Assembly (NCBI GenBank): GCA_030595925.1
Contig: JAUVLC010000010.1
Span: 1-38,922 of the forward strand
Direction: 5' to 3'
DNA from: Clostridia bacterium
GTDB taxonomy: Bacteria > CBDUZB01 > JAGLHV01
DNA length: 38,922 nucleotides
Position 1 is the first letter of the stretch; every line of letters starts with the position of its first letter. This document shows positions 9,924 to 28,386 of the stretch, one piece after another. The position numbers and the translations under genes are program-made. The notes under the pieces are model-generated. The model worked only from the letters and a program-made list of their open reading frames with translations. It searched no databases and was not told where the DNA came from.

Positions 9924-10274
9924 CTAAATTATCTCTATATTGTCACCCTGTTGGGTTTTAGTTTCAAAAATTTTTCCGGTAGGGAGTTCAATTACTCCAT
10001 AAGCCTTCCAAATCCATGGACTTATTCTATAGGGCCGCAAATTTGAAATAATTTTTATAACTTTCCGTTCTTTATCAAAAAAAATTACATCAATTGAAAA
10101 ACGCATAAAAAAGGTATGAATGGACGAGGTCTTCAAAATTATCAGTCCCTCTTTTTCATTTAAAAACTTCCTCCCCATTAAACCAATCAATCGCGAAACA
10201 AAAGTATTTGCTTCCTTTGCTTTTTCTGCCAAAAGGCAATTTCGAGTACGATTAAAAACTCTTTTTACGATCAT
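9924..10274 (-). CDS. DUF192 family protein
   Basis: 116 aa. Family motifs are visible in order: RLIGLMGRKFLNEKEGLII, then IHTFFMRFSIDVIFFD, then VIELPTGKI and QGDNIEI at the end. DUF192 is a small beta fold of unknown biochemical role. Most members are exported or lipoprotein-anchored; this one has no signal peptide. Its start overlaps the stop of tadC by 4 bases, giving translational coupling. DUF192 genes are found at the ends of some Tad loci, so a link to pilus assembly is plausible but unproven. Confidence 0.9.
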   Translation of the reverse strand: MIVKRVFNRTRNCLLAEKAKEANTFVSRLIGLMGRKFLNEKEGLIILKTSSIHTFFMRFSIDVIFFDKERKVIKIISNLRPYRISPWIWKAYGVIELPTGKIFETKTQQGDNIEII

Positions 10275-11179
10275 ATATCTCCCGTAAAATATTTTATAAT
10301 CAAAGGAACCAGAATTATTACAAAAGTCATTGGAAAAATAAAAATTATCATAGGGAATATCATTTTAGTCCCGATTTGTGCTGCTCTTTTCTCTGCCATT
10401 TGCAAACGTTTTATTCTTATTTCTGCCGCATAATCACGCATAATAACTACAAGGTCTGTCCCTAATTCTTCTGTTTGAAGAAGTACAGAAATAAAAGCAC
10501 TAATTTCCGCAATATCCACTCTTTTAGCAAGATTTTTTAAAGCATCTCTTCTATTTAGACCCAGTTTTATTTCGCCCAACATTAAATTTATTTCTTCAAC
10601 AAGAGGATCCTTTTCTCCCCATTTTTGTTTAGTGATTATTTTTTCAAAAGCCGACATAAAATCCAACCCTGCCTCTACGCACAAGGTCAAAAGATCTACT
10701 ACCCCGGGCAAGGAAATACGAATTGCATCTGCTCTATCTTTTATTCTTTTTGTAATGTAATAATCAGGGATAAAAAAACTTAATACAACTATACATACCA
10801 AAATCAACGGATTGGTTATAATCCCCTGCATATATAAAAATACTGATAGAGCAAGCCCTCCAATCACTGCAACTTCTTTGAAGATTAAAATATCTCCGGG
10901 ACGAAGATGCGATTGCTTTCCCAATTTGGATAATTGTTGTTCTATTTTTGTTTTTATTTTTCCCTGTGCAAAAAATTTTCTATTGAATTTTTTCAAAATT
11001 CGTTTAACCAAATCAATCAAATTTTTCTTTTTTTCTTCTACAGGCTCTTCTTCCAAGGCATACAAGTCTGCAACTATATAATCGTCCAACTCATTCTTTT
11101 TTTCTTTCATTAAATATAAAAAATAAACTATTTGAAAAATTGCAACAAACCATAAAATCATACCTATTATTATTGACAT
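10271..11179 (-). CDS. tadC: Tad pilus inner-membrane platform protein TadC
   Basis: 302 aa. One N-terminal membrane helix (residues 3-22) and a pair near 95-130 precede the GspF/T2SSF domain (VDLLTLCVEAGLDFMSAFEKI...LGLNRRDALKNLAKRV...LGTDLVVIMRDYA). The protein ends in a long helix (MIFPMIIFIFPMTFVIILVPLII). TadB and TadC form the inner-membrane platform on which the CpaF ATPase acts to extrude Flp pilin. TadC typically has this extra helix pair before a single GspF domain. The gene follows tadB with a 90-base gap and overlaps the DUF192 gene. Confidence 0.93.
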   Translation of the reverse strand: MSIIIGMILWFVAIFQIVYFLYLMKEKKNELDDYIVADLYALEEEPVEEKKKNLIDLVKRILKKFNRKFFAQGKIKTKIEQQLSKLGKQSHLRPGDILIFKEVAVIGGLALSVFLYMQGIITNPLILVCIVVLSFFIPDYYITKRIKDRADAIRISLPGVVDLLTLCVEAGLDFMSAFEKIITKQKWGEKDPLVEEINLMLGEIKLGLNRRDALKNLAKRVDIAEISAFISVLLQTEELGTDLVVIMRDYAAEIRIKRLQMAEKRAAQIGTKMIFPMIIFIFPMTFVIILVPLIIKYFTGDI

Positions 11180-11269: not shown

Positions 11270-12133
11270 TTAAATCTTTACTTTTGCCATTTTAAAAACA
11301 ATAAAAATTCCTATCATCTGCCATCCCGTAGCTGCTATTAATATAATTATACCGACAGGATGATGAAATAAAGGAGTCATAAACCCAGGTTGTACTATAG
11401 ACAAAGCCGCAGCCAAACCCCATGGAAGAAAAAAAGATATTGTAGACTCTAATATTCCCTGTGCAGTCAAAACCTGAACCTTCCGTTTCAAAACATAATT
11501 ATCTCTGATAGAACGAACAACCTGATCCAGAATTTTAGTAATATCTCCCCCTGATTCCCGTTGAATAACCATCGCTGTAACAATAAATCTTACCAACTCA
11601 CTATCAATGCGAATAGATAAATTTTCTAAACTCATTTCCAGCGTAGAGCCAATACGCGTTTCTTGAAGGACTAATTTGAATTCATCACAAACAGGAGACG
11701 GCATATCACGAACAATCAATTGTATTCCCTGAGTTAAATCAAGCCCTGCTTTTAAAGAATTAGAAAGTAATATTAATGCTTCTACCAATTGTTCTTCGAA
11801 TTTCTTAATACGGCGCGCTTTAGCAAATTTAAATAATACCCGGGGCAATGCCAAACTCGCCAGTGCCGCCAAAACAGCTATCACCGCATTACCTGTCATA
11901 AAATAAACGAATATTCCAACAAGTAACATCCCTGACAAGACGTACAACCCAAATTGCGACTCTTTAACTTTGACAAATATACCACTAAGATCAACAGTCG
12001 TGCCCTTTACTATTTTTTTATAATACCCACTATAACGAAAAACCAATAAGGTTACCGACTGATAAAGAAACATTCCTGCTAACCATAAGCAAAAAGCTAT
12101 TAAAAACGTCGCTCCAAATTTTAATAAAACCAT
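11270..12133 (-). CDS. tadB: Tad pilus inner-membrane platform protein TadB
   Basis: 287 aa. Membrane helices lie at about residues 5-28 and 58-100, and two more near the C terminus (WGLAAALSIV, GIIILIAATGWQMIGIFIVF). The GspF domain between them includes LILLSNSLKAGLDLTQGIQLI and IQRESGGDITKILDQV, the signature of TadB. It partners TadC in the pilus platform. It lies 43 bases after the CpaE-CpaF fusion gene, in standard Tad order (ATPase, TadB, TadC). Confidence 0.94.
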   Translation of the reverse strand: MVLLKFGATFLIAFCLWLAGMFLYQSVTLLVFRYSGYYKKIVKGTTVDLSGIFVKVKESQFGLYVLSGMLLVGIFVYFMTGNAVIAVLAALASLALPRVLFKFAKARRIKKFEEQLVEALILLSNSLKAGLDLTQGIQLIVRDMPSPVCDEFKLVLQETRIGSTLEMSLENLSIRIDSELVRFIVTAMVIQRESGGDITKILDQVVRSIRDNYVLKRKVQVLTAQGILESTISFFLPWGLAAALSIVQPGFMTPLFHHPVGIIILIAATGWQMIGIFIVFKMAKVKI

Positions 12134-12176: not shown

Positions 12177-14354
12177 CTATCCACTTTTTTCAATATGAAA
12201 AACTCCTATCGGCAAATTAACTCCCTGAGTTTTAAATTCTGGATAACATTTAGGAATATTTCCTGTGGCCCGAAAAAAACCCGTTATTTTTTTATCTTCT
12301 ATACCTGTTCGCTGAAAAACAAAAATATCCTGTGCGGTAATAACATCTTTTTCCCTTCCTGTCACCTCGGTCACTTTAGTTATTTTCCTTGTCCCATCCG
12401 AAAAACGGGTTAATTGAATTACGAAATGTACAGCAGAAGCAATTTGTTCCCGAATTGCCCGTAAAGGCAACTCTGCCCCTGCCATAAGTATCATCGTTTC
12501 TAATCTACTCAGCATATCACGAGGAGAATTTGCATGTATGGTTGACAAAGAACCTTCATGTCCGGTATTCATTGCTTGCAACATATCCAATGCTTCAGGT
12601 CCCCGGCATTCACCTACCACAATACGATCCGGTCTCATACGCAAAGTATTTCTCACTAAATCACGTATAGTTACTTCCCCTTTCCCTTCAATATTAGGCG
12701 GTCGTGATTCTAACCGGCCCACATGTATCTGTTTTAGTTTTAACTCAGCAGTATCTTCTATCGTAATAATTCTCTCACCCTCAGGAATAGCTGCCGATAA
12801 AATATTCAACAAGGTAGTCTTTCCTGTTCCCGTTCCTCCCGAAATAAGTACATTCTTTTTTATCTTAACACATGCGGACAAAAACTGAAAAACTTCCCCA
12901 CTGATAGCACCCATCTTTATCAAATCCTCTCCGGTCAACGGATTTTTAGGAAAGCGCCTGATAGTAAGCATTGGCCCTTGTAATGCCAGGGGAGAAATAA
13001 TAGCATTTATTCTGGATCCATCTGCAAGCCGGGCATCCACAAATGGCATACTTTCATCTATTCTCCGGCCCAAAGGAGCAACTATTTTTCTAATTACCTG
13101 AACAACCTGATCATTACTAATAAATTTACGATCAGTGAGATACAGTTTACCATTTTGTTCAACATAAATTTGATCAAACTTATTTACCATAATTTCCGTA
13201 ATAGAAGACTCTTCCATTAAAGCCTCTAAGGGGCCTAACCCTAATGCTTCATCCACTATTTCCGCAATTAACTCTTCTCTCTCCTGTCTGGACATGGTAT
13301 CAACATCTATTTCCGTACTTAAAATAAGTGCAGCGGCTCTTTCAACAATCATCTTTACTTGTTGATTTTTAGCATCAGTAATAAAGTCTATTTTTCTTAC
13401 ATCCAATCGTTTAATTAATTGTTTATGAATCTTTTGTTTTAACTCATTACGGATTGCTTCTTCTTTTCCCTTTTTTATAATTTCCTCTTCTGACAATTTA
13501 TCAACAAAAAAATTCTTATTTTCTATTTTTCCTCTTTTCACAACGGTATCAAATCTATTCAATAACCCATCCAAAACACTTATTTTTTCTATCTTCCTGC
13601 CCCGTTGCGGAACATTAAGCATAATCCCTCTTATTCTTCTAATACTTTCCGAAAAACCGCTATGCGGTTCATTTACTATTAAAGGCTTTCTTTTATCTAT
13701 GGATCGCGAAACTAATTTATCTTGAGGAATAAGCTCCTCAATATTCTTTCCGAAACCCTGTAAAGAAGAATTGATTTCTCCACTTTTTATTGCTCCTTTT
13801 ATATCAAACTGATTTAAAACGAGACAAAATTTAGCAAAACTAAATTTATAAGAAGCAATTTTTTTAAACTTATCAATACTTTGTCTGAGAAAAATATTAG
13901 AGGGCATAAAAATCCAGAAAATTATATCCGCAAAATCAAACATTAATATTCCTTTTTGCGTAATATCACTCTCCATATCTATTACTAAAGAATAAACCTT
14001 ATTTAATCCGATTAAAACCCTCGCAATCTGGTTGAGAGAAATATCTACTGCTACTTTTTCATCAGGAGCTAAAGCTAAAACCCCTACTCCCCACTTATTA
14101 AAACTTATCCGGCCTCTTAAAAATTCTCCATCTAAAACATCTCTTTGCATTACTATAGACATTTTTGAAACATATGAAGCAGAAACATCTAACATTTGTG
14201 CTATTTCTCCCTTACAAAGAGGATCTAAATCAACAATAACCACTTGTTTTTTAGCCCTCATAGCCCAATCAATTGCTAAATTAACAGCTATTACCGTTTT
14301 TCCCATTCCTTTTTGCGGACCGGAAAAAACAATTATCCTATTACTATTTTCCAT
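12177..14354 (-). CDS. CpaE-CpaF fusion: MinD/ParA-like localiser joined to the Tad secretion ATPase
   Basis: 725 aa. Residues 1 to ~245 are a MinD/ParA-type ATPase as in CpaE/TadZ: deviant Walker A GPQKGMGKT at about 12-20, VVIVDLDPLCKG, then SLVIDMES and VLNQFD. A charged linker (~250-310) leads to a complete CpaF/TadA ATPase of the VirB11 family: GLGPLEALMEESSITEIMVN, RIDESMPFVDARLADGSR, Walker A GGTGTGKTT near 506-514, Walker B RPDRIVVGE and the His box GHEGSLSTIHANSP. CpaE normally places the machine in the cell as a separate protein, with its own receiver-like N-domain; that domain is missing here. Joining the two fixes them 1:1 and would place the localiser on each subunit of the CpaF hexamer. 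The ATG at 14354 is clean and no frameshift is needed. Confidence 0.93.
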   Translation of the reverse strand: MENSNRIIVFSGPQKGMGKTVIAVNLAIDWAMRAKKQVVIVDLDPLCKGEIAQMLDVSASYVSKMSIVMQRDVLDGEFLRGRISFNKWGVGVLALAPDEKVAVDISLNQIARVLIGLNKVYSLVIDMESDITQKGILMFDFADIIFWIFMPSNIFLRQSIDKFKKIASYKFSFAKFCLVLNQFDIKGAIKSGEINSSLQGFGKNIEELIPQDKLVSRSIDKRKPLIVNEPHSGFSESIRRIRGIMLNVPQRGRKIEKISVLDGLLNRFDTVVKRGKIENKNFFVDKLSEEEIIKKGKEEAIRNELKQKIHKQLIKRLDVRKIDFITDAKNQQVKMIVERAAALILSTEIDVDTMSRQEREELIAEIVDEALGLGPLEALMEESSITEIMVNKFDQIYVEQNGKLYLTDRKFISNDQVVQVIRKIVAPLGRRIDESMPFVDARLADGSRINAIISPLALQGPMLTIRRFPKNPLTGEDLIKMGAISGEVFQFLSACVKIKKNVLISGGTGTGKTTLLNILSAAIPEGERIITIEDTAELKLKQIHVGRLESRPPNIEGKGEVTIRDLVRNTLRMRPDRIVVGECRGPEALDMLQAMNTGHEGSLSTIHANSPRDMLSRLETMILMAGAELPLRAIREQIASAVHFVIQLTRFSDGTRKITKVTEVTGREKDVITAQDIFVFQRTGIEDKKITGFFRATGNIPKCYPEFKTQGVNLPIGVFHIEKSG

Positions 14355-14375: not shown

Positions 14376-15167
14376 TTATTTTACTAACTTAAAAGTTACG
14401 AACATAACTAATGATGTTTGTCTATTCATAGTATCCGCATACGTAAAAAAAGCATCCCCAATAAGGGGAATATATCCTAATAAAGGAACTCTCCTTTTGC
14501 TTATTATCTTTGAATCTTTTTTTAACCCGGCAATAACCAATGTTTGTTTGTTTTTTATCATTATTTTATTCCTCATTTCCCGTTTGGTAAAAGAAGGAAG
14601 GCGATACACTCCATAATTATACCAATCCCCTAATTCCACAACTCCCATCTTTAATTTAGCCGAAATGTTTATATTATCAACCACAACAGGTGCAACGTCT
14701 AAGGATACTCCGTACTCTTTCCATTTAATGACAATGTCATTATCATTAGTATAGACATAAGGAATCTCCCCCCCTACTAAAAAATGGGCTTCTGACCCAC
14801 TCTCAGTGACTAATTTAGGATTAGCTAAAAGTCGAGCTTCGTTATTATTAATTAGTGCATGGAGGGAACTCATAAAAGGAGTCGTTCTAAAAACTGTCCC
14901 TATTTTATAAACATCATAAGGCATTCCCCCAACAACATTATCTCCCAAAATGGAAGGAATACTCCCTTCTTCAAAACTAAAAGCATCCATCCACTCTATT
15001 CCTAATTTTTTAAGATTTGTCTCCGTTATTTCTATTGCATCAACACTTATCTCTACCATTCGTCTCGCCCCATAAACAAATGTTGCTTTTCCAAATAGTC
15101 CATATCCTTGCAGGAGAACAACCCCTAAAAAAATTTTCCCAACTATTATAATTATTTTCTTTTTCAC
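14376..15167 (-). CDS. Shortened Tad pilus secretin (CpaC/RcpA-like, C-domain only)
   Basis: 263 aa, against roughly 450-500 for usual CpaC. After a signal sequence (VGKIFLGVVLLQGYGLFG) it goes almost directly into the secretin pore domain: VEISVDAIEITETNLKKLGI, LLANPKLVTESGSEAHFLVGG, EIPYVYTND, KEYGVSLDVAPVV and the end RVPLLGYIPLIGDAFF. The usual N-terminal BON/N0-N1 domains that reach into the periplasm are absent. It starts with GTG at 15167, overlapping the cpaB stop by 4 bases (GTGA), with AAGGAGG just upstream. It is predicted to form the outer-membrane channel for the pilus. The missing N-domains may be replaced by another protein; the repeat-tail protein at 16588 is one candidate. 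Confidence 0.88.
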   Translation of the reverse strand: MKKKIIIIVGKIFLGVVLLQGYGLFGKATFVYGARRMVEISVDAIEITETNLKKLGIEWMDAFSFEEGSIPSILGDNVVGGMPYDVYKIGTVFRTTPFMSSLHALINNNEARLLANPKLVTESGSEAHFLVGGEIPYVYTNDNDIVIKWKEYGVSLDVAPVVVDNINISAKLKMGVVELGDWYNYGVYRLPSFTKREMRNKIMIKNKQTLVIAGLKKDSKIISKRRVPLLGYIPLIGDAFFTYADTMNRQTSLVMFVTFKLVK

Positions 15168-15943
15168 TTTTCCTCCTTTTCTGCACTTACCGTTTCTCTC
15201 TTTCCCTCCCCTCCAATATGTTTTTCATCGCTCACAACTTTAGGTGTTATAGGCGTTTTCTGTTTTTCATAAAGAGCAGGATATGAGGTTTTCTTTATAT
15301 TATTTATTTTGCCGTCATTGTAAGAACGCACGATATAAGTGATCTTTCCTTCCCCTGTAGCCAAAATAAACAACTGACATTGTTCCGGGGTTAAAGCAAA
15401 AGTCAGAAAATTTCCTTTTTCCCCTCCCGTACCAAAATCCGATCCTATACTTAAAATAATAACATTTTGTAATCGGGTAAAAACACAATTTCCCGGATAA
15501 TTAAGATCGGGCAAAGTAAGCAGAATATCCAAATGATCTCCCGGATTAATTAAAGATAATAAGTCTTTATCTCCTTTCGCTACAATTCCACGCATCCCCA
15601 TTGGAACTTTGACTGATAAGCCTGTATCCTTACTCAACGGAACTAAACTGGATTGTAAAACTTGCATCCCCCGGGAAATGGGAACTAAATTAACCAACCC
15701 TTCTGCTGCTTTCGGATCACGAATTGCCTTGGGCTGAATATATTTTTGCGGTATTTCCATAAACCCCAACATATTAGTTTTAATTACACTCCTTTTAGGA
15801 ATATTTCGCACTGCTACTACCACCCGGTTTTTGATCAATCCCCGTTCTAATGCTCTTTCCTTACTTGCTAAATACCATCCATTAAACATTATTGCCAATA
15901 TTCCCGCAATTCCCGCAATTATTAACCCTGCTTTTCCACCCAT
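15164..15943 (-). CDS. cpaB: Tad pilus assembly protein CpaB/RcpC
   Basis: 259 aa. An N-terminal membrane anchor (GLIIAGIAGILAIMFNGWYL) is followed by a SAF-like domain (VVVAVRNIPKRSVIKTNML, then GLVNLVPISRGMQVLQSSL) and the CpaB/RcpC region (VPMGMRGIVAKGD, LINPGDHLDILLT, LTPEQCQLFILATGEGKI). CpaB is a periplasmic partner of the secretin. The start at 15943 has a strong AAGGAGGGG site. A long perfect hairpin sits between this gene and the TadE gene upstream. Confidence 0.93.
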   Translation of the reverse strand: MGGKAGLIIAGIAGILAIMFNGWYLASKERALERGLIKNRVVVAVRNIPKRSVIKTNMLGFMEIPQKYIQPKAIRDPKAAEGLVNLVPISRGMQVLQSSLVPLSKDTGLSVKVPMGMRGIVAKGDKDLLSLINPGDHLDILLTLPDLNYPGNCVFTRLQNVIILSIGSDFGTGGEKGNFLTFALTPEQCQLFILATGEGKITYIVRSYNDGKINNIKKTSYPALYEKQKTPITPKVVSDEKHIGGEGKRETVSAEKEEK

Positions 15944-16107: not shown

Positions 16108-16497
16108 TTATATTTTTCTCATCATACAACAGCCATGAATTTTATAATCGTTTCCCTCCCCGGCAAAAAACGCTAATATTTCAGGAAGAAGATAACCATA
16201 AGAAATCATTACACTTACGCTCCCTCCTCCATTTTCATGGTCTAAATCTCCATCCCAATCTGACGGCATCACCCCTGCTGCCGCACTTTTTGCTGCACTT
16301 AGCGGATCCCCCACCCCTTTACTTTCTACTACTACAAAAGTCCGACAAAAATAATAAGCAGCATGATTAGCAACAATAATATTATTACAAACATCCCAAA
16401 TAATCAACATCAAAAACAAAGAATATATTAACAAGGGAGAAACTATCAAGAACTCAATCATAGTCTGACCTTTTCTTTCTCTCATTTTTCTCCGCAT
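16108..16497 (-). CDS. TadE-like pseudopilin
   Basis: 129 aa. A short basic lead (MRRKMRERK) is followed by GQTMIEFLIVSPLLIYSLFLMLII, where the prepilin-type cut would fall after Gly with Glu at +5 of the mature form, then a ~95-residue domain. TadE/TadF pseudopilins are minor subunits processed by the TadV peptidase and needed for Flp pilus assembly. Only one such gene is present here; no TadF or TadG was seen. It sits between the repeat-tail protein and the long hairpin. Confidence 0.85.
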   Translation of the reverse strand: MRRKMRERKGQTMIEFLIVSPLLIYSLFLMLIIWDVCNNIIVANHAAYYFCRTFVVVESKGVGDPLSAAKSAAAGVMPSDWDGDLDHENGGGSVSVMISYGYLLPEILAFFAGEGNDYKIHGCCMMRKI

Positions 16498-16970: not shown

Positions 16971-17141
16971 TCATCCTCCAACACTACTTTTTACTGAACC
17001 TCCCACAGAATTATACCCCTCATTAATTTGATCTTTAAAATAACTCAATCCGGCAATAGCTCCCAATACTACTACCGCTAACAAAATCAAATATTCTACT
17101 AAACTTTGCCCTAAAGCACTTCTTTTCTTTTTCTTAAGCAT
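16971..17141 (-). CDS. Flp-type pilin 6 (last of six)
   Basis: 56 aa. Basic leader MLKKKKRSALG, then the mature start QSLVEYLILLAVVVLGAIAG, a hydrophobic helix with Glu5-Tyr6, the hallmark of Flp pilins cut by the TadV peptidase. The tail (SYFKDQINEGYNSVGGSVKS) is short. RBS AAGGAGGG lies 7 bases before the ATG at 17141. The helix is closely similar to pilin 2 (17962-18117): both carry GQSLVEYL and YFKD, so these two look like duplicates. Confidence 0.92.
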   Translation of the reverse strand: MLKKKKRSALGQSLVEYLILLAVVVLGAIAGLSYFKDQINEGYNSVGGSVKSSVGG

Positions 17142-17206
17142 TTTTCTCACCCTCCTTTTTTTAACATCAGTTCAAATTATTCCATTTTTATCCGGCTTAA
17201 AACTAA

Positions 17207-17383
17207 TTATCCACCAAAACTGGCAATACTATTAGCAATACCATCGTACCCGGTCATAATACCAGATCTCATAATGTTAATAATAACCACTGCCGCCGCT
17301 GCCATTACTCCCAAAATTATAGCATATTCTATCGCTGACTGCCCTTTCTTTTTCTTTAAGATGTTCTTCAATGTTATAAACAT
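17207..17383 (-). CDS. Flp-type pilin 5
   Basis: 58 aa from the ATG at 17383. Leader MFITLKNILKKKKG, then QSAIEYAIILGVMAAAAVVI with Glu5-Tyr6, and a short tail ending ANSIASFGG. The frame is open upstream to 17428, but an AGGAGG site sits 9 bases before 17383 and overlaps the alternative ATG four codons earlier, so 17383 is preferred. Its Ala-rich helix and IEYAI start are closest to the classic Flp1 pilin, making it a good candidate for the major subunit. Confidence 0.92.
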   Translation of the reverse strand: MFITLKNILKKKKGQSAIEYAIILGVMAAAAVVIINIMRSGIMTGYDGIANSIASFGG

Positions 17384-17476
17384 TTTTTCCATCCTCCTTT
17401 CTTTTATTCCATATTTAGTTTCCAACAAAACACCATAGATTCACTACATTTTATCCTTTTCGCTCTACATCGATAA

Positions 17477-17650
17477 CTATTCGGATTTTTCTTTCCAACT
17501 ATCCCAATATTCACCCGGATTAGAATGCATAGAAACCTGCGCATTGTTGCGCATATAATCCCTTATACAATTTACTGCTATTCCTACTGCCCCTGCAACT
17601 ACCGCAACAAGCAACAAATATTCTATAATGTTTTGCCCCTTTTTATTCAA
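17477..17650 (-). CDS. Flp-type pilin 4 (TTG start)
   Basis: 57 aa. An in-frame TAG lies just two codons upstream, so the TTG at 17650 is the only usable start. Leader M(N)KKG is the shortest of the six, followed by QNIIEYLLLVAVVAGAVGIA with Glu5-Tyr6. The tail is longer and polar (RDYMRNNAQVSMHSNPGEYW, ending in EKSE). A single Cys (N-C-I-R) follows the helix. Tail and start codon suggest a minor or adaptor pilin; that is inference. Confidence 0.85.
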   Translation of the reverse strand: MNKKGQNIIEYLLLVAVVAGAVGIAVNCIRDYMRNNAQVSMHSNPGEYWDSWKEKSE

Positions 17651-17674: not shown

Positions 17675-17857
17675 TTATTCTGGTTCTTTAATAGTATAAT
17701 ATGAACCTTCACCCGTAGCAACACCCGCTGGATCCGCCTTCGTTACAATAAAGCCTTTTATCGTAGTTGCTACCGCTGTTATGGCTCCGGCTATTACAGC
17801 AACTACTAAAAGATACTCGATTACATTTTGCCCCTTACTTTTTTTATTTTTAAACAA
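17675..17857 (-). CDS. Flp-type pilin 3 (TTG start)
   Basis: 60 aa. GAGGAGGTG stands 6-8 bases before a TTG at 17857, which I take as the start although the frame stays open upstream to 17911. Leader MFKNKKSKG, then QNVIEYLLVVAVIAGAITAV with Glu5-Tyr6. The tail (KADPAGVATGEGSYYTIKEP) differs from all other copies. It shares the QN-x-IEYLL opening with pilin 4, so the two are probably paralogues. Confidence 0.88.
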   Translation of the reverse strand: MFKNKKSKGQNVIEYLLVVAVIAGAITAVATTIKGFIVTKADPAGVATGEGSYYTIKEPE

Positions 17858-17961
17858 TTTAAACACCTCCTCTTTATTATTAAAACAAATCCCTTCCCAA
17901 TTTTCAAGCATCCCCCCCCTTTCTTTAAAAATTTACTTTTTTATTTAATTCTTTTATTTTA

Positions 17962-18117
17962 TTATCCCGCTCGCGACTTCATTGCCTGCGTTACAGAATT
18001 AAAGGAATCAGTCACCGTATCTTTAAAATAAATCATTCCGGCAACAGTCCCGAGCACCACCACCGCTAATAAAACCAAATATTCCACTAAACTTTGCCCT
18101 TTTATCTTTTTTTTCAT
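17962..18117 (-). CDS. Flp-type pilin 2
   Basis: 51 aa. Leader MKKKIKG, then QSLVEYLVLLAVVVLGTVAG with Glu5-Tyr6; tail IYFKDTVTDSFNSVTQAMKS. The RBS is weak (GAGAGAAAG). The stop is TAATAA. Closest to pilin 6 in helix and tail (both have YFKD followed by a short Ser/Val tail). Confidence 0.9.
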   Translation of the reverse strand: MKKKIKGQSLVEYLVLLAVVVLGTVAGMIYFKDTVTDSFNSVTQAMKSRAG

Positions 18118-18151: not shown

Positions 18152-18319
18152 TTAATTGGCATCTATTAATTTCTTAGATATTTTATCAAAATAATCATCA
18201 AAAGTACTTTTCATCCCAACACTTATAACCATCATTCCCAAACATATCACAGCAGTAACAACCAGATATTCCAACAAAGCCTGCCCTTTTTTATTTCTCC
18301 TGCTTCCTCGTCTTTTCAT
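18152..18319 (-). CDS. Flp-type pilin 1, first gene after the riboswitch
   Basis: 55 aa. A long, very basic leader MKRRGSRRNKKG, then QALLEYLVVTAVICLGMMVI with Glu5-Tyr6 and a Cys in the helix; tail SVGMKSTFDDYFDKISKKLI. The RBS is GGAG 6-8 bases before the ATG at 18319. It is the first gene of the Tad run, about 95 bases after the terminator-like element of the c-di-GMP riboswitch. Confidence 0.9.
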   Translation of the reverse strand: MKRRGSRRNKKGQALLEYLVVTAVICLGMMVISVGMKSTFDDYFDKISKKLIDAN

Positions 18320-18417
18320 CTCTATTCTCCTAATTTTTTCTTGATCACCTTTTTCCCTTACCTTATTTTAGACACGCTTTTTAATTATACTCTTCTTTTC
18401 TTTTTCTGTCAAGTCAT

Positions 18418-18461
18418 AAAAAAACCGGCACCACCTTTTCAAGAGTCACTTAGAAACCGGT
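18418..18461 (-). terminator. Terminator-like element of the Tad riboswitch
   Basis: On the minus strand ACCGG (18461-18457) can pair with CCGGT (18428-18424), which runs into seven T (18424-18418). The inner loop is ~28 bases with weak inner pairing. The same segment 18461-18457 can instead pair with ACCGG at 18470-18466, making a competing hairpin with a 5-base loop. These mutually exclusive folds between the aptamer and the first pilin gene are what a transcription-terminating riboswitch needs. The direction of switching cannot be read from sequence. Confidence 0.6.
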
Positions 18462-18481
18462 CATCCCGGTCAGTGATATCC

Positions 18482-18580
18482 CTTCGGTAGCCCGGCTGTC
18501 CACTATTATAGCATAATGAACCACGTGGCTTTGCGTCTCTATCTTTAAATAAAACAATGATAGATTTGCCTTTTTCGAAG
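18482..18580 (-). ncRNA. c-di-GMP-I (GEMM-I) riboswitch aptamer upstream of the Tad pilin genes
   Basis: On the minus strand the GEMM-I order is present. P1 CUUCG (18580-18576) pairs with CGAAG (18486-18482). The joiner AAAAA leads to GGCAAA (18570-18565). P2 is UCUAUC/GAUAGA with a 15-base loop. The ligand-pocket stretch ACGCAAAGCC (18536-18527) follows, then P3 (outer CCAC/GUGG, inner AUUAU/AUAAU) and the closing segment ACAGCCGGGCUACCGAAGG. The paired bases, GGCAAA, CGCAAAGCC and CCGGGCUACC all match the family. The P2 loop lacks the usual GNRA tetraloop, so the P2-P3 dock may be weak. It lies in the leader of the pilin operon. Confidence 0.92.
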
Positions 18581-18621
18581 ATTATTCTAAACCTTTATAG
18601 CTTTTACCACCTGACATTATA

Positions 18622-18649
18622 AGTATAACACAAGAATTCGATTTGTCAA
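18622..18649 (-). promoter_or_regulatory. Promoter of the Tad riboswitch-pilin transcript
   Basis: Minus strand: TTGACA (18649-18644), a 16-base spacer, then TATACT (18627-18622). Transcription would start near 18615, about 35 bases before the aptamer P1. The -35 box is a full sigma70 consensus and the -10 box is one base off it. Confidence 0.8.
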
Positions 18650-28281: not shown

Positions 28282-28362
28282 TTGGAAAAAGGTAAATCCG
28301 TCGTAAGGCGGAGACACAAAGTTACAGTCCCTGACTTAATCAAGGGAGGCTGGGTTACCCAA
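28282..28362 (+). ncRNA. Second c-di-GMP-I (GEMM-I) riboswitch aptamer
   Basis: P1 UUGG (28282-28285) pairs with CCAA (28359-28362). The joiner AAAAA leads to GGUAAA, as in the first aptamer except for C to U. P2 is UCCGUC/GGCGGA (28297-28302, 28307-28312) capped by GUAA, a GNRA tetraloop that the family uses to dock on P3. The pocket stretch ACACAAAGUUAC (from 28314) differs from ACGCAAAGCC by G to A in step with the C to U change, so a C-G pair has become U-A. P3 (CAG-CCCU/AGGG-CUG) and the closing GGGUUACCC follow. It precedes the secreted-protein genes starting at 28631. Any ORF across this stretch is not real. Confidence 0.85.
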
Positions 28363-28386
28363 GAAAATAGGAAAAAAACTTTTAAA

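Follow-up and report, generated by a model that had tools for sequence, protein, structure and literature searches.

The riboswitch of the Clostridioides difficile pilus operon contains a class II aptamer, unrelated to GEMM-I. As cited in PMC11656802, c-di-GMP raises the expression of that operon, which encodes a Type IV pilus, whereas the operon analyzed here encodes a Tad pilus. The pilM riboswitch of Geobacter metallireducens (GEMM-Ib, PMC9262584) is a transcriptional ON switch for cGAMP located before other pilus genes, in which ligand binding prevents terminator formation. The present leader is predicted to act in the same direction but differs in that it precedes Tad genes, carries G20, which predicts c-di-GMP rather than cGAMP as the ligand, and is followed by a second promoter. 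With the GEMM-I riboswitches Vc2, Bc1 and Cd1 (RF01051) it shares the core, the P1/P2/P3 layout, G20, A47 and the distal CC, and as in that class an intrinsic terminator platform lies ahead of surface-structure genes. Tad pili and c-di-GMP are both part of the switch to surface life.

The locus lies on the minus strand of a 38,922-nucleotide stretch of DNA from a Clostridia bacterium (contig JAUVLC010000010.1), hereafter the window. The leader comprises the following elements, in the order of transcription:

18622–18649, minus strand: promoter P1, TTGACA-N16-TATACT with TG before the −10 box, 11 of 12 consensus positions; start of the riboswitch leader.
18483–18580, minus strand: c-di-GMP-I (GEMM-I) aptamer, with G20, A47 and the distal CC present.
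18482–18486, minus strand: 3' strand of aptamer stem P1, CGAAG, pairing with CUUCG at 18580–18576.
18486–18497, minus strand: AGCCGGGCUACC, the aptamer 3' strand, which in both species doubles as 5' arm of the long terminator when the full leader takes its minimum-energy fold.
18446–18476, minus strand: guard helix UCACU:AGUGA closing the ACCGG(1):CCGGU(2) hairpin, as obtained by stepwise folding.
18418–18435, minus strand: terminator 3' arm GGUGGUGCCGG followed by a run of seven U.
18384–18412, minus strand: promoter P2, TTGACA-N17-TATAAT, 12 of 12 sigma-70 consensus positions, past the terminator; candidate riboswitch-independent start for the pilin genes.

We propose, with a probability of roughly 0.6, that through the c-di-GMP-I leader the transcription of a Tad operon with a promoter of its own also becomes responsive to c-di-GMP.

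The Rfam c-di-GMP-I model (RF01051) matched the minus strand over its full length at 18580–18483, with a score of 51.9 bits (E 1.8e-7) against a gathering score of 35 bits, which bears out the GEMM-I aptamer and core pieces read from the minus strand in a preliminary description of this DNA. The orthologous leader of the congener G002 (L156:6975–7067) scores 55.3 bits. Between the two aptamers the pairing of stems P2 and P3 is kept through base changes, stem P1 is also kept, and the core is identical. Judged by its sequence, the leader is a genuine member of the c-di-GMP-I riboswitch class.

Both aptamers carry G at position 20, A at position 47 and UACC on the 3' side (Vc2 numbering). An A at position 20 is a mark of cGAMP selectivity. 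The window aptamer has G20 instead, which disfavors cGAMP (GEMM-Ib), and the combination of G20 and A47 fits c-di-GMP as the predicted ligand; G20, A47 and C92 are the ligand-pocket positions named in PMC11218506. Across the three genomes of the genus, four aptamers have A at position 20 and 36 have G; the four are found at L011 (G0_C56), L165 (G2_C179), L025 (G1_C125) and L161:7260–7343 (G1_C323b). Having both A20 and G20 aptamers, the genus may respond to two different cyclic dinucleotides.

The window aptamer differs from the GEMM-I model in its P2 loop. As the preliminary description had noticed, this loop is 15 nucleotides long (AUUGUUUUAUUUAAA) and has no GNRA tetraloop; the congener likewise lacks GNRA and has the 5-nucleotide stretch UUAGA. 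The GNRA tetraloop is present on P2 in 37 of 40 aptamers from the three genomes, the three exceptions being the Tad leader of the window, its ortholog and one other. In type I GEMM-I RNAs this tetraloop docks on P3, and its absence may, as the preliminary description proposed, make affinity or speed unusual. A GEMM-I type without tetraloop receptor (type II) has already been described, and it usually keeps a GYRA loop (PMC11218506).

The genome (2.6 Mb in 193 contigs) contains 18 c-di-GMP-I matches over the cut-off and one weaker match, and the two congener genomes contain 12 each. Nine GGDEF matches make c-di-GMP signaling likely in this genome. The window itself holds a second GEMM-I aptamer at 28282–28363 on the plus strand, in which U22-A45 replaces C22-G45 and A47 is kept. 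The c-di-GMP-I-GGC variant was the best-scoring model for it, but this assignment was dropped because position 47 is A and c-di-GMP-I also fits, at 59.2 bits. This aptamer precedes a 189-residue open reading frame and an fn3/CHU_C protein, a context reminiscent of Geobacter bemidjiensis, in which fibronectin type III genes are under GEMM control (PMC2996986).

The consensus promoter placed ahead of the aptamer in the preliminary description is found at 18649–18622, with an extended −10 box, and 26 of its 28 positions are identical in the congener. The seven-T ending is likewise seen, at 18424–18418, within a terminator stretch (18454–18418) that is identical at 32 of 37 positions. In both species the lowest-energy fold of the full leader is a long terminator that pairs AGCCGGGCUACC with GGUGGUGCCGGU, the 3' arm that adjoins the U run. 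The computed pair probability between the aptamer 3' strand and the terminator 3' arm is 0.92 in the window and 0.999 in the congener. Because the terminator takes its 5' arm from the 3' strand of the aptamer itself, an ON switch is predicted; in the computed structures the ligand-free terminator borrows part of the aptamer, as in a transcriptional ON riboswitch. The short-platform sibling leaders follow the same principle, their terminator arm pairing with the aptamer.

A home-made segment-wise kinetic model of termination gave, for the window leader (G000), terminator values of 0.95–1.00 with the aptamer strand free and 0.20–0.29 with this strand sequestered. In stepwise folding with the aptamer folded, the guard helix ties up the second CCGGU and so stands in the way of a competing local terminator, with a conversion barrier of 16.2 kcal/mol; the first ACCGG/CCGGU hairpin sits inside this UCACU:AGUGA-closed structure. 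UCAC/GUGA is also paired in the congener, where the barrier is 13.8 kcal/mol via a different inner hairpin. When the aptamer is forced and the downstream segment is folded alone, the local terminator still has the lowest energy of all folds, in the window leader as in that of the congener (−21.0 and −26.9 kcal/mol). The ON polarity therefore rests on kinetics, the bound-state terminator of the window leader being kinetically disfavored at the values given above but thermodynamically available. A cotranscriptional simulation of the whole leader with a ligand bonus did not yield the expected contrast between free and bound states and misfolded the 5' part. It was set aside because of this misfold and because four base pairs between the 5' end and the 3' arm were scored as a terminator; this permissive scoring also exaggerates the bound state in the short-platform control leaders C72a and C140.

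The thermodynamic availability of the local terminator with the aptamer folded also fits an OFF switch, in which c-di-GMP binding would favor termination, and the same kinetic model assigns this behavior to the sibling leaders C72b and C323a, and partly to C193 (free 0–0.27, bound 0.89–1.0). However, the ligand-free Tad leader has no antiterminator, its lowest-energy fold is the terminator itself, and, like the short-platform siblings, it uses the aptamer as the partner of its 3' arm, so that an OFF switch is unlikely here. On the modeled folds, the Tad leader is most likely an ON switch serving one of two promoters.

The congener leader has an additional terminator, UUCGGGUUUUUUU, which overlaps aptamer stem P1 and forms at 0.86–1.00 with the aptamer open; the second terminator of the congener was not reproduced by the kinetic model, whose termination values there did not exceed 0.10 even in the ligand-free state. 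Bc1 from B. thuringiensis likewise has a dual-terminator platform (PMC11218506), of unrelated sequence; the window's own leader has one terminator.

The −35 box of promoter P2 begins 6 nucleotides after the U run, and the promoter thus sits between the U run (18424–18418) and the start of the first pilin gene (18319). It is closer to consensus than promoter P1 (12/12 versus 11/12) and is identical to its counterpart in congener G002 at 27 of 29 positions. The pattern TTGACA-N17-TATAAT occurs 60 times in the genome versus twice for a reversed control pattern, which indicates that it marks real promoters there; together with a Markov expectation of ~8e-5 in the 107-nucleotide gap, these counts make a chance match unlikely. 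Identity to the congener is 93% for promoter P1, 90% for the aptamer, 86% for the terminator and 93% for promoter P2, against 45% upstream of promoter P1 and 69% between promoter P2 and the Shine-Dalgarno sequence. When the 300 nucleotides downstream of 43 GEMM-I leaders in the three genomes were compared, a promoter with at most one mismatch was present after the two Tad leaders and after none of the other 41.

The preliminary description had the riboswitch drive the whole Tad run, with a segment able to form either of two ACCGG/CCGGU hairpins as the on/off element. Sole control through these two small hairpins would agree with the aptamer, the terminator U run and promoter P1, all of which exist and immediately precede the pilin genes. 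Yet in the ensemble of the downstream segment the ACCGG(2):CCGGU(3) hairpin is reached with a probability of ~0, at a cost of 10.7 kcal/mol; in the full leader the 3' arm is taken up by the aptamer 3' strand, and the congener leader lacks ACCGG(1). On these grounds the alternation was rejected as the switch. With a conserved perfect-consensus promoter past the terminator, sole drive by the riboswitch is too strong a claim, and we regard it as quite unlikely. The interval originally delimited, 18418–18649, takes in promoter P1, the aptamer and the T run but stops at 18418 and misses promoter P2 at 18412–18384. The original reading holds in two respects: the RNA is a GEMM-I riboswitch, and its transcription-termination platform precedes Tad/Flp genes. 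Given the arrangement of its sequence elements, the riboswitch probably boosts pilus expression rather than acting as the only on/off switch.

In the mechanism that we favor, RNA polymerase would start at promoter P1 and transcribe the aptamer. Without ligand, GGUGGUGCCGGU would invade the aptamer 3' strand AGCCGGGCUACC to form the long terminator, and the transcript would stop at the seven U. With c-di-GMP bound, the 3' strand and stem P1 would be held in the aptamer and the guard helix would keep the alternative CCGGU occupied, permitting read-through into the pilin genes (ON). Promoter P2 would independently start transcripts lacking the riboswitch, such that Tad expression would equal the basal level from promoter P2 plus a c-di-GMP-induced share. 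If strong, promoter P2 may leave the riboswitch little weight for Tad. A tentative, rather doubtful extension treats promoter, riboswitch, terminator and promoter as one conserved unit: a strong promoter P2 would make Tad pili partly constitutive, the riboswitch would set only the c-di-GMP-responsive share or read-through would interfere with promoter P2, and the tetraloop-less aptamer may respond only at higher c-di-GMP.

A further alternative takes the leader mainly as a stand-alone, terminated c-di-GMP-binding RNA, with promoter P2 alone driving Tad and the terminator insulating it from promoter P1 traffic. The capacity to form terminators whether or not the aptamer is folded and the better consensus of promoter P2 are compatible with this, as are a precedent in the Bdellovibrio merRNA (PMC3627812) and the GEMM-I Bc1 of B. 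thuringiensis, reported as locked OFF in vivo (PMC11218506). We nevertheless consider it quite unlikely, as the Neobacillus family repeatedly has GEMM-I upstream of flp, with no site like promoter P2 found there, and as in most sibling leaders a termination platform precedes a gene. On the preferred reading, with a c-di-GMP-dependent input added to an operon with its own promoter, the bypass promoter illustrates that an operon behind a riboswitch can also be under other control.

The putative operon would extend along the following run of genes:

18152–18319, minus strand: first Flp-type pilin, 55 residues, with a GQxxxEY motif.
17962–18117, 17675–17911, 17477–17650, 17207–17428 and 16971–17150, minus strand: five more Flp-type pilins, each with GQxxxEY.
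16108–16497, minus strand: TadE-like pseudopilin candidate, 129 residues (GQTMIEFLIV), proposed from sequence with no Pfam hit.
15164–15943, minus strand: CpaB/RcpC (TIGR03177, 97.2 bits, over the cut-off).
14376–15167, minus strand: short secretin, 263 residues (PF00263, 110.9 bits).
12177–14354, minus strand: TadZ-TadA fusion, 725 residues (PF01656 at 9–224, PF00437 at 371–657).
11270–12133 and 10271–11179, minus strand: TadB and TadC, two T2SSF proteins (PF00482).
9924–10274, minus strand: DUF192 protein (PF02643, 66 bits).

The six Flp pilins that had been noted directly downstream of the leader are thus recovered; all six contain GQxxxEY, a motif common to Flp pilins from Firmicutes, and the pilin at 17207–17428 also matches Class_IIIsignal and Flp_Fap (E 4–5e-4). 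With Flp pilins, CpaB, a secretin, a TadA ATPase and TadB/TadC, the run is a Tad/Flp (type IVc) locus. It is not the complete locus that had been assumed, as it lacks a prepilin peptidase (TadV); the only PF01478 match of the genome lies on another contig (G000:C90). The fusion protein has a ParA-like N-terminus and a CpaF ATPase C-terminus; TadZ and TadA are fused in the window and are separate genes in the Firmicutes loci L101, L104 and L120. A DUF192 protein or similar open reading frame lies beside the Tad genes in the window, in L101 (6383–6736) and in L120 (1444–1782), and in the Bacillus relatives a DUF192-like gene is often the first after the riboswitch. In the congener, the first pilin gene (L156, about 7240) has an in-frame TAG (KGQA*LEY), and the later pilin open reading frames look open.

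The association of GEMM-I with Tad is recurrent, not unique. A c-di-GMP-I riboswitch lies upstream of Tad genes on the same strand in 3 of 80 Tad ATPase loci drawn from many phyla: Neobacillus muris (L120), Fredinandcohnia onubensis (L101) and Clostridia DTU022 (L104, with two tandem aptamers). These three loci include the ATPase, as in the window. The N. muris Flp pilin has a match in 21 of 61 sampled genomes of its family, and in 16 of these 21 flp-bearing genomes (L206 and 15 others) GEMM-I is found 62–518 nucleotides upstream of flp on the same strand, similar to the window and to Clostridia DTU022. The Neobacillus-family leaders differ in that a DUF192-like gene often lies between GEMM-I and flp, and in that, between the two, no promoter deviating from consensus by two mismatches or fewer was found in any of the 16 loci. 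The window leader stands out by its bypass promoter, which is conserved, and by having lost the GNRA loop. Searches of a literature collection for GEMM combined with Tad found no paper describing a c-di-GMP riboswitch on a Tad/Flp operon; the known cases, Geobacter pilM and the C. difficile operon, involve pili of other kinds. The occurrence of this arrangement in the genus and in the Neobacillus family suggests that direct RNA-level control of Tad pili by c-di-GMP is a common design, testable in culturable Bacillus relatives.

GEMM-I leaders of the same genus also precede other genes. One leader lies directly before a PD-(D/E)XK nuclease (L002:1709–2614) that matches the PADLOC candidate PDC-S02 with E 5e-44, and leaders L001 and L003 precede proteins without a family hit. 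The leaders of one genome (L007, L008, L010, L012 and others) are of two kinds, those with an aptamer-strand terminator (ON-like) and those with an independent terminator (OFF-like), and many of the OFF-like platforms carry a CCGTAG mimic.
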